A stretch of DNA of 64,000 nucleotides from Apostichopus japonicus (Eukaryota; Echinodermata; Holothuroidea; Aspidochirotida; Stichopodidae): contig NC_092569.1 in NCBI RefSeq assembly GCF_037975245.1, forward strand, positions 35,562,668-35,626,667, written 5' to 3'. Position 1 is the first letter of the stretch; each line of letters starts with the position of its first letter. The notes beneath the pieces are model-generated. The model did no database searches and was not told where the DNA came from. It saw only the letters and a program-made list of their open reading frames with translations. The position numbers were made by a program, and so were the translations under genes. This document shows, piece after piece, positions 20,331 through 21,174 of this stretch.

Positions 20331-20541
20331 ATATATATATATATATATATATATATATATATATATATATATATATATATATATATATATATATATATAT
20401 ATATACACATATATATATATATAGATATAGATATAGATATAGATATATATATATATATATATATATATATGTATATATATATATATATATATATATATAT
20501 GTATATATATATATATATATATATATATATATATATATATA
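20331..20541. repeat. (TA)n / (GATATA)n microsatellite
   Basis: About 210 bp of TA with a short GATATA stretch near 20423-20445. It directly abuts the hammerhead element dimer. Confidence 0.95.
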
Positions 20542-20601
20542 GCAATTGGTATGACAGATATATAGTAAATCCATAAAGAATAACACACCAGACAAATTCC
20601 A

Positions 20602-20643
20602 CTTTACGACCGGTTTCGTCCTTTTGGGACTCATCAGGCGAAG
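20602..20643 (-). ncRNA. hammerhead ribozyme, type I, copy 1
   Basis: Minus strand 5' to 3': stem I CTTCGC (20643-20638), core CTGATGA (20637-20631), stem II GTCC-CAAAA-GGAC (20630-20618), GAAA (20617-20614), a minimal stem III of the palindrome ACCGGT, then C17 at 20608 followed by the stem I strand GTAAAG (20607-20602). The cleavage triplet GUC is allowed. Stem I pairs 5 of 6 positions, with one C-A mismatch. The two-base-pair stem III suggests it works best as a dimer. Confidence 0.8.
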
Positions 20644-20646
20644 GTA

Positions 20647-20700
20647 GGAATCGAACCCCGGATCTTTGTGTCACGAACCAAAGTCCGTACCACTCGACCA
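20647..20700 (-). promoter_or_regulatory. tRNA-like internal pol III promoter, copy 1
   Basis: The minus strand A box TGGTCGAGTGG (20700-20690) and B box GGTTCGATTCC (20657-20647) match the consensus. Between them CTTTG and CAAAG form an anticodon-like stem. The T-arm is poorly paired and no acceptor stem is present, so it is tRNA-derived, not a tRNA gene. Confidence 0.75.
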
Positions 20701-20806
20701 CAGTGAATCTATTGGTGTGTTAAAACGTATATATTGGCTTTGTGTAGCAAGTGGTATGACAGATATGTAGTAAATCAATAAAGAATAACACACCAGAAAA
20801 ATTCCA

Positions 20807-20848
20807 CTTCACGACCTGTTTCGTCCCTTCGGGACTCATCAGGCGAAG
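20807..20848 (-). ncRNA. hammerhead ribozyme, type I, copy 2
   Basis: Same layout as copy 1 and better paired. Stem I CTTCGC (20848-20843) pairs with GTGAAG (20812-20807) over all six positions, with one G-U. The core is CTGATGA, stem II is GTCCC-GAA-GGGAC, then GAAA, the short ACAGGT segment, and the cleavage triplet GUC with C17 at 20813. The changes in stem I and stem II against copy 1 keep or improve pairing. Confidence 0.82.
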
Positions 20849-20851
20849 GTA

Positions 20852-20905
20852 GGAATCGAACCCCGGATCTTTGTGTCACGAACCAAAGTCCGCACCACTC
20901 GACCA
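20852..20905 (-). promoter_or_regulatory. tRNA-like internal pol III promoter, copy 2
   Basis: The A box TGGTCGAGTGG (20905-20895) and B box GGTTCGATTCC (20862-20852) are identical to copy 1, with the same CTTTG/CAAAG stem. Confidence 0.75.
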
Positions 20906-21174
20906 CAGTGAATCTATTGGTGTGTTAAAGCGTATAAATTGGCTTTAAATAACTGTCATTAAGGGCGTATTACCCAAGTGTAATGATTGTAAAGAGTGCA
21001 CCCCTGGCGCTTTGAATCTGAAAATTTAACACAGAATAACCACTCTTTATAGGCAATCGGTCAGGGAGGGGTCAAAGGGAAGAAGTGTGATCACGATGCA
21101 AAATTTATACATTTAAGAATGAATAAATCATAAATTATTTCACTTTAAAAGAAATTGGTCTTTATTGAATTAAC

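Follow-up and report, generated by a model that had tools for sequence, protein, structure and literature searches.

The stretch analysed here, 64,000 nucleotides of one Apostichopus japonicus contig (the window), carries a tandem repeat at 20540-20946 (94% matches), in which 189/200 positions are identical at an offset of 205 vs. 46-60/200 at ten neighbouring offsets; the two units are 94.5% identical, differing at ~5% of 201 aligned positions. The 205-bp tandem pair described in a first-pass annotation is thereby borne out, as is its order on the minus strand of A and B boxes followed within about 10 bases by a hammerhead ribozyme: the A box to B box distance is 54 nt end to end, and the B box lies 9 nt 5' of CUGAUGA. 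The extent given in that annotation (20541..20945) was too short, because mapping to a family unit from elsewhere in this genome (L036, the mapping reference, numbered from the cut) reads 97-341-72 and then 207-341-66, placing the start of the element at ~21058 and making the 205 bp a unit minus a spacer of ~134 bp. The features are as follows.

20541..21058, minus strand: whole element copy, its sense running from 21058 to 20541 (L036-unit alignment 97-341-72, then 207-341-66; upstream homology in L013 and L020)
20947..21058, minus strand: 5' spacer portion of the family unit, single here (homology and L036 alignment; at least 41 matches in its own genome, including that of the window)
20746..20946, minus strand: first (5') unit of tRNA-like head and hammerhead (tandem and offset comparison)
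20541..20745, minus strand: second (3') unit of tRNA-like head and hammerhead, spacer deleted (tandem, offset comparison and L036 alignment)
20895..20905, minus strand: A box of unit 1, TGGTCGAGTGG (pattern match)
20852..20862, minus strand: B box of unit 1, GGTTCGATTCC (pattern match); its ATTCC (20852-20856) and the GGAAT at 20801-20805 could form an outer stem I
20690..20700, minus strand: A box of unit 2, TGGTCGAGTGG (pattern match)
20647..20657, minus strand: B box of unit 2, GGTTCGATTCC (pattern match)
20807..20848, minus strand: hammerhead 1 (Rfam RF00163, 34.3 bits), predicted cut 20813/20812
20602..20643, minus strand: hammerhead 2 (Rfam RF00163, 34.3 bits), predicted cut 20608/20607, with a C.A mismatch in stem I
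20797..20801, minus strand: T5 run directly after hammerhead 1, between the units, a likely pol III stop (T5+ in 45/62 family cores)
20763..20770, minus strand: counterpart of reverse transcription (RT) start site 1, 43-50 nt past the cut (from the ends of family copies)
20750..20755, minus strand: ACCACT, 58-63 nt past the cut (six Penelope-like element, or PLE, copies of the same genome have ACCACT 57-62 nt past their own presumed cut; the hexamer alone is not significant)
20737..20748, minus strand: junction CTACACA/AAGCC, joining unit position 72 to 207 with ~134 nt of spacer missing (L036 alignment; same junction in L102)
20330..20540, no strand: (TA)n array immediately 3' to the element, representing either its target or its tail (repeat scan; (AT)n lies 3' of 44/58 family insertions)

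The A-B pair has no other site in the window and occurred twice in 200 window resamples, and the strict hammerhead core pattern was confined to the two unit sites, with 0/100 shuffles producing it, so that a chance origin of the tandem head and hammerhead can be set aside. The ORFs of at least 100 aa that overlap the 518-bp element all extend into the (TA)n array, and no ORF of the kind that defines a PLE, joining a reverse transcriptase to GIY-YIG, is present in these 518 bp. The tandem represents a single copy of a mobile repeat that is non-coding and scattered through the genome. Other repeats of the window include a tandem duplicate (23899-24935 and 25082-26118, 100% identity) with a 224-aa ORF that has no Pfam match, (AT)n arrays adjoining both copies and a further array at 26119; two duplicated blocks at ~93% (37814-40407/51905-54501 and 41917-43930/54496-56516), the second holding EGF and fibrinogen-C type coding pieces; and an 863-bp (ATAG)n array (99%) at 35122-35984.

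A profile search of the own genome (671,581,487 bases in 35 contigs) gave at least 59 Hammerhead_1 matches, the best 74 of 66307 candidates being scored, and these were grouped into 58 loci (L013-L070), a best-scoring subset rather than a random sample. Nearly all 58 belong to one family. Including the window and leaving out L019 (overlapping L018) and L029 and L030 (copies of L028), 62 distinct cores were compared. A separate search with the spacer returned at least 41 matches (best 40 of 510 candidates scored). Full units recur in tandem at spacings of 341 (L036), 340 (first pair of L028) and 327 (L050), the spacer search added a further tandem at exactly 341 on contig C14, and single alignments exceed 341 nt in 7/55 own-genome loci; the family unit is therefore ~341 bp, and the 205-nt monomers that had been predicted do not correspond to it. 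Thus, a genome search for multimers, as proposed in the first-pass annotation, did uncover tandems, but the 205 spacing was met just once more: the 55 own-genome loci analysed for ends contained no second example, and the one found by the spacer search (L102) is a duplicate of the window copy ~577 kb away. At that place (C9:35006739-35006850) the 112-nt spacer is identical to that of the window, with the same first hammerhead and 205 junction behind it, and a segmental duplication is likely from this identity. A repeat of 150-450 bp that carries a type I hammerhead and is also found in tandem has the sequence features of a metazoan non-LTR retrozyme, and the 341-bp unit shows them.

With the Rfam Hammerhead_1 model both copies match on the minus strand at 34.3 bits (E 8.8e-5), marginally over the gathering cut-off of 34 bits, so that the covariance check that had been suggested came out positive; scores reach 46.7 bits elsewhere in the genome, and the longer HH9 model gave 39.6-47 bits in 4 of eight rescanned loci (HH9 cut-off 52). 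The type I hammerhead had been called complete, which holds for the core and the covariance score but fails for stem III, consisting of A-U and C-G with 2 nt between (ACCGGU or ACAGGU): two base pairs around two bases cannot close as a hairpin within one molecule, and the window copies accordingly lack the three closed stems in a single molecule that RF00163 describes. The lowest-energy folds of isolated cores likewise did not give the full hammerhead, although this is a weak test. The commonest stem III hexamer, ACCGGT, is found in 46/62 distinct cores and, being self-complementary, ACCGGU could let stem III pair between two copies; we surmise from this layout that the predicted hammerhead would cleave only when dimeric or when aided by a protein.

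The changes in stems I and II between the two copies had been read as mostly keeping pairing, and hence as a sign of selection. Neither reading is supported: among the four hammerhead differences (20605, 20612, 20622 and 20625) none is compensatory, as 20605 turns a C-G pair into C.A in copy 1, 20612 lies within the stem III region, and 20622/20625 are in loop II, one of them giving copy 2 an extra C-G. When 15 stem pairs were scored in 50 copies of the family, both partners had changed in 2 cells and a single partner, with pairing retained, in 18, vs. 32 cells in which the pair was broken, and covariation in the predicted fold and hammerhead pairs was thus rejected as a proof of selection. 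The five pairs of outer stem I (ATTCC/GGAAT) showed 5 one-sided, 0 two-sided and 14 broken cells in the 50 copies and are unsupported by covariation, pair counts of this kind being a poor test of outer stem I.

Recognizing that loci picked by their hammerhead are uninformative on hammerhead conservation, we examined 20 of the at least 41 spacer matches (the best ranks, minus the window's own and the clusters already sampled), taking the 250 bases that follow each match on its 3' side. The ten catalytic residues that were scored were all retained in 17/20 and the full core pattern in 14/20, so that the family is not one in which the core is random and only the tRNA-like head is kept. Counted against the majority of 19 copies (the truncated L107 being left out), changes amounted to 35/718 in the leader, 6/209 in the A box, 48/607 between the boxes, 7/208 in the B box, 37/797 in the ribozyme and 103/638 past the cut, the last including ragged tails. 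Single-copy comparisons gave the ribozyme 4.0% vs. 12.7% for the head (hammerhead-picked) and 4.8% vs. 10.6% (spacer-picked), figures that are biased by private changes of L036 and, in the first set, by the loci having been picked through the ribozyme itself. Excess conservation of the ribozyme was rejected, as the ribozyme is at 4.6% vs. 4.9% for the leader and 23/134 blocks of equal length do as well. A core that is non-random and yet no more conserved than the leader indicates a young family and gives no proof of selection.

The A and B boxes of the window copies stand at tRNA spacing, as in a tRNA-derived SINE, and may start pol III transcription. In the family, the tRNA-like head was recovered in 50/62 hammerhead-picked cores (alignment score) and the strict A-B pattern in 11/20 spacer-picked copies; together with the catalytic residues this upholds the general description of a retrozyme-like repeat with a SINE-like promoter head of tRNA type. 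A true tRNA was rejected for the head: ARAGORN found no tRNA gene in the window, RF00005 gave no match up to E 10 in the 420 bp scanned, and a tRNA covariance search of the head in eight loci gave none up to E 5. An observation apart concerns viral contigs from IMG/VR, where 5 of 12 pattern-found contigs (L001, L002, L003, L005 and L009) have a tRNA gene (Lys, Asp, Gln, Asp and Trp, respectively) followed immediately on its 3' side by a hammerhead core, and L004, L006, L007, L008 and L011 carry a different hairpin, GGTTCAAACCC, ahead of the core, ARAGORN detecting no tRNA in them; the tRNA-like head pattern had 0 matches in the viral contigs, a phage sequence search gave only short matches of E 1 or above among the matches listed, and no title plainly on viral tRNA-hammerhead pairs was among the literature matches listed.

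The ends of family copies were analysed in 56 loci (55 own-genome loci and the window), comprising 66 pieces longer than 80 nt. Measured past the hammerhead cut, 35 ends fall at 30-59 nt and 20 at 70-99 nt (one of the latter being the window's internal junction), the others being distributed as 7 further on, 2 at 20-29, 2 at 60-69 and 0 at 0-19 nt, where ends right at the cut could have been missed because selection of the loci required a whole hammerhead, which takes in 6 nt past the cut. Junctions read TTTAC|TATAT(AT)n or CACATTCA|ATAT, and the 5' starts of the pieces are scattered. By eye, the 20 spacer-picked copies repeat this pattern, 11 ending ~27-52 and 4 ~75-81 nt past the cut; outside both end classes are L109, which ends, or is deleted, at a T8 run, L114 and L115 (one duplication), which break off 3 nt short of the cut, L107, lost before the ribozyme, and L102, which repeats the window's junction. 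An (AT)n of at least 4 repeats lies within 40 nt on the 3' side of 44/58 insertions and on the 5' side of 25/58, the background being 296 of 3052 40-mers with the same loci included. As TATATAT is part of the unit itself at site 1, slippage within (TA)n could obscure the site-1 end; of the 35 site-1 pieces, 3 are followed within 400 bp on the 3' side by another family piece on the same strand, and none of these continues from there. We infer from these end positions that the copied RNA usually ran through the cut and past the T run that follows it.

Inverted pairs, with pieces within 25 bp of each other, were head-to-head in 15/56 loci and tail-to-tail in 0, and both outward ends fell at 30-59 or 70-92 nt in 9/15 of the pairs; those of L065 and L066 are one duplication. 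For 8 of 14 pairs a binomial with 53/341 gives 4e-4, which is a guide only, because the end windows were chosen after the ends were seen. Two classes of RT-start ends, an AT-rich target and products of both strands are features that passages of PMC11167929 describe for PLE activity, and all three are found in this family as expected of PLE cargo, representing a footprint rather than a test of the enzyme.

A possible source of such an enzyme is present in the same genome. At L043, an ORF ~400 nt from a retrozyme copy has a GIY-YIG domain (1.1e-5, above the cut-off), and this ORF as a query gave at least 145 genome matches (best 150 of 631 candidates scored); in L074 a single 621-aa frame combines RVT_1 (4.9e-9) with GIY-YIG (2.3e-4, just under the cut-off), which as a predicted product has the layout of a PLE. 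Among 30 PLE loci, 27 contain a total of 33 minimal hammerheads, 26 of them in the same orientation as the GIY-YIG match, and 6/30 loci have minimal hammerheads on both strands. Past the presumed PLE cut, (AT)n starts at 39-58 nt in 22/33 and at 62-84 nt in 8/33, with 1 at 6 nt and 2 having none within 130 nt; thus, the PLE shows the same end classes, site 2 differing somewhat (62-84 vs. ~70-92 nt in the retrozyme). Six PLE hammerheads have ACCACTA at +57 and the retrozyme has ACCACT at +58, but a shared hexamer at a like offset arose in 3129/20000 resamples, and 2228/10000 shuffles aligned locally as well as the PLE and retrozyme tails do, 525 of these at a like offset. Sequence kinship of the two tails is therefore not supported, and the evidence joining PLE and retrozyme is one of layout. 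Five of the PLE loci (L077, L080, L089, L097 and L099) also show a third hammerhead-like motif, CTGACGAAGGTCCCAGGGGGACCGAAAA, with one base different in L099, which is probably another element. In the window, the ORF at 23339-23683 has a YVGET...RF motif resembling the GIY-YIG of PLEs, not far from an (AT)n; it is at most a candidate PLE remnant (no Pfam match; E 0.014 to PLE).

From these data, we consider it probable that the element is a non-LTR retrozyme of ~341 bp with an A/B-box head, copied in trans by the PLE machinery of the same genome. We postulate that its RNA, comprising a minimal type I hammerhead and the tRNA-like head, would be reverse-transcribed by the PLE, which would nick (TA)n DNA and start copying inside the RNA ~45 or ~75 nt 3' of the cut, often from both nicked strands, yielding the head-to-head pairs. 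As copies cross the cut site, sometimes for more than one lap, the template would be an uncut multimer or a religated circle, and a putative circular RNA from the retrozyme is plausible; a hammerhead without a closable stem III would process such RNA by dimeric or protein-assisted cutting.

The alternative that best withstands the evidence, albeit one that we regard as unlikely, is that a conventional SINE of tRNA type was mobilised by a LINE, acquiring its (AT)n tail and undergoing twin priming, and that the hammerhead is a passenger. It would fit with the ribozyme showing no excess conservation and with the head-to-head pairs, as inverted 5' ends are also produced by LINE twin priming; in the window, the ORF pair at 23899-26118, which we take to be LINE-like, has (AT)n on its 3' side, but no Pfam match. 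This reading does not account for the ends falling into two classes, each at its own distance past the hammerhead, nor for both outward ends fitting those classes in 9/15 inverted pairs; retention of the catalytic residues in 17/20 spacer-picked copies argues against a mere passenger, and the presence of a PLE with the same end classes weakens it further.

The interpretation put forward in the first-pass annotation, in which pol III transcription of the 205-bp tandem would yield a multimer that is self-cleaved to 205-nt monomers and circles, appears improbable to us, even though the A and B boxes are good and at tRNA-like spacing, two hammerheads stand in tandem, and the 205 tandem is present a second time, as the duplicate L102. 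A T5 run separates the units, and a run of T4+ within 30 nt past the cut is found in 52/62 cores (T5+ in 45/62), which by its sequence should terminate pol III. Pieces ending at the T run number 0/66 among those hammerhead-picked and at most 1/20 among those spacer-picked (L109), so that a T-stopped pol III transcript would not be the RNA usually mobilised, with read-through pol III RNA remaining a candidate. In addition, the family unit is 341 bp, no tRNA covariance match was obtained in the window or at the head of 8 loci, and stem III is unable to close in cis. Least probable of all is unequal exchange after insertion or an assembly error, by which the tandem would be uninformative on RNA: segmental copies do exist (L028-L030, L065/L066, L114/L115 and the 112-nt spacer identity at C9:35006739), but multi-lap copies occur at several loci with differing start points, the 341 spacing is found elsewhere, the same junction stands at a second place of the assembly (L102), and the ~5% difference between the window units argues against recent exchange.

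Returning to the retrozyme copied in trans by a PLE, we lean, if only slightly, toward a broader proposition, namely that animal retrozymes are to PLEs as SINEs are to LINEs, with the hammerhead and ~90 nt behind it forming a module that the PLE recognises (two internal RT-start sites), to which this family would have added a tRNA-like head with the B box doubling as a strand of outer stem I. Passages of PMC7229834 and PMC7761336 leave the autonomous mobiliser of animal retrozymes undecided, with PLEs as a strong candidate; if true, our reading would name the autonomous partner so far merely proposed. Since partner and cargo of one genome share an end signature, the question of the mobiliser becomes testable by a known assay. 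Within the open-licence literature we found no papers on a hammerhead ribozyme in A. japonicus, nor any joining retrozyme, Penelope and target-primed reverse transcription.

Among known systems, tandem repeats with hammerheads also include newt satellite 2 and cave-cricket pDo500, and newt satellite 2 RNA may act only as dimers. The present family is like these in its tandem hammerhead repeats and unlike them in its tRNA-like head, none being known to us in satellite 2 or pDo500. Metazoan retrozymes of coral, mussel and axolotl are described in portions of PMC7229834 as repeats of 150-450 bp with a type I hammerhead and circles, for which a PLE is the strong candidate mobiliser, and our family resembles them in being composed of short type I hammerhead repeats, from monomers to multimers. 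According to the relevant passage of PMC7761336, such retrozymes seem promoterless and without a motif revealing the mobilising element, whereas A/B boxes and PLE-like ends are both present here.

The fusion of a tRNA-like head with a hammerhead, for which the first-pass annotation knew of no clear description, has a precedent in schistosomes, where Sm-alpha combines a head resembling tRNA-Gln with a type I hammerhead (excerpts of PMC2770079, PMC8490949 and PMC4918200). In those excerpts, the SINE-like Sm-alpha and Sj-alpha elements carry hammerheads and an S. mansoni SINE family is tRNA-Gln-derived (PMC2770079), the type I hammerhead of the Sm-alpha family is found at high copy number (PMC8490949), and the schistosome repeats hold 'a full tRNA-Gln', although the legend of Fig. 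7 reads tRNA-Glu (PMC4918200). Our element is like Sm-alpha and Sj-alpha in being a SINE-like repeat with a type I hammerhead (PMC2770079, PMC8490949, in part); as compared by description, it differs in that theirs is recognised as a tRNA, whereas here there are A/B boxes alone, with the B box overlapping stem I. A second such fusion besides that of schistosomes suggests that these fusions recur. What seems new here is the apparent mode of movement, as evidenced by PLE-like ends, and not the joining of promoter and ribozyme.

In that mode of movement, the closest counterpart is Poseidon, a PLE of Anolis, for which the sections of PMC11167929 at hand report: 1) two internal start sites for RT, a tail of 30-40 bp and AT-rich targets; 2) cleavage and extension of both strands; 3) a hammerhead that cuts only with protein present, insertion being independent of that cut. 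The Anolis start sites lie ~85-92 nt past the cut, a distance that follows from a cut at +26 and starts at +111-118, differing from the sites here, and the retrozyme, unlike Poseidon, has no RT/EN gene. With Poseidon as presented in those sections, it nonetheless shares a hammerhead lacking stem III, a pair of internal sites for RT start, AT-rich targets and partial tandems.
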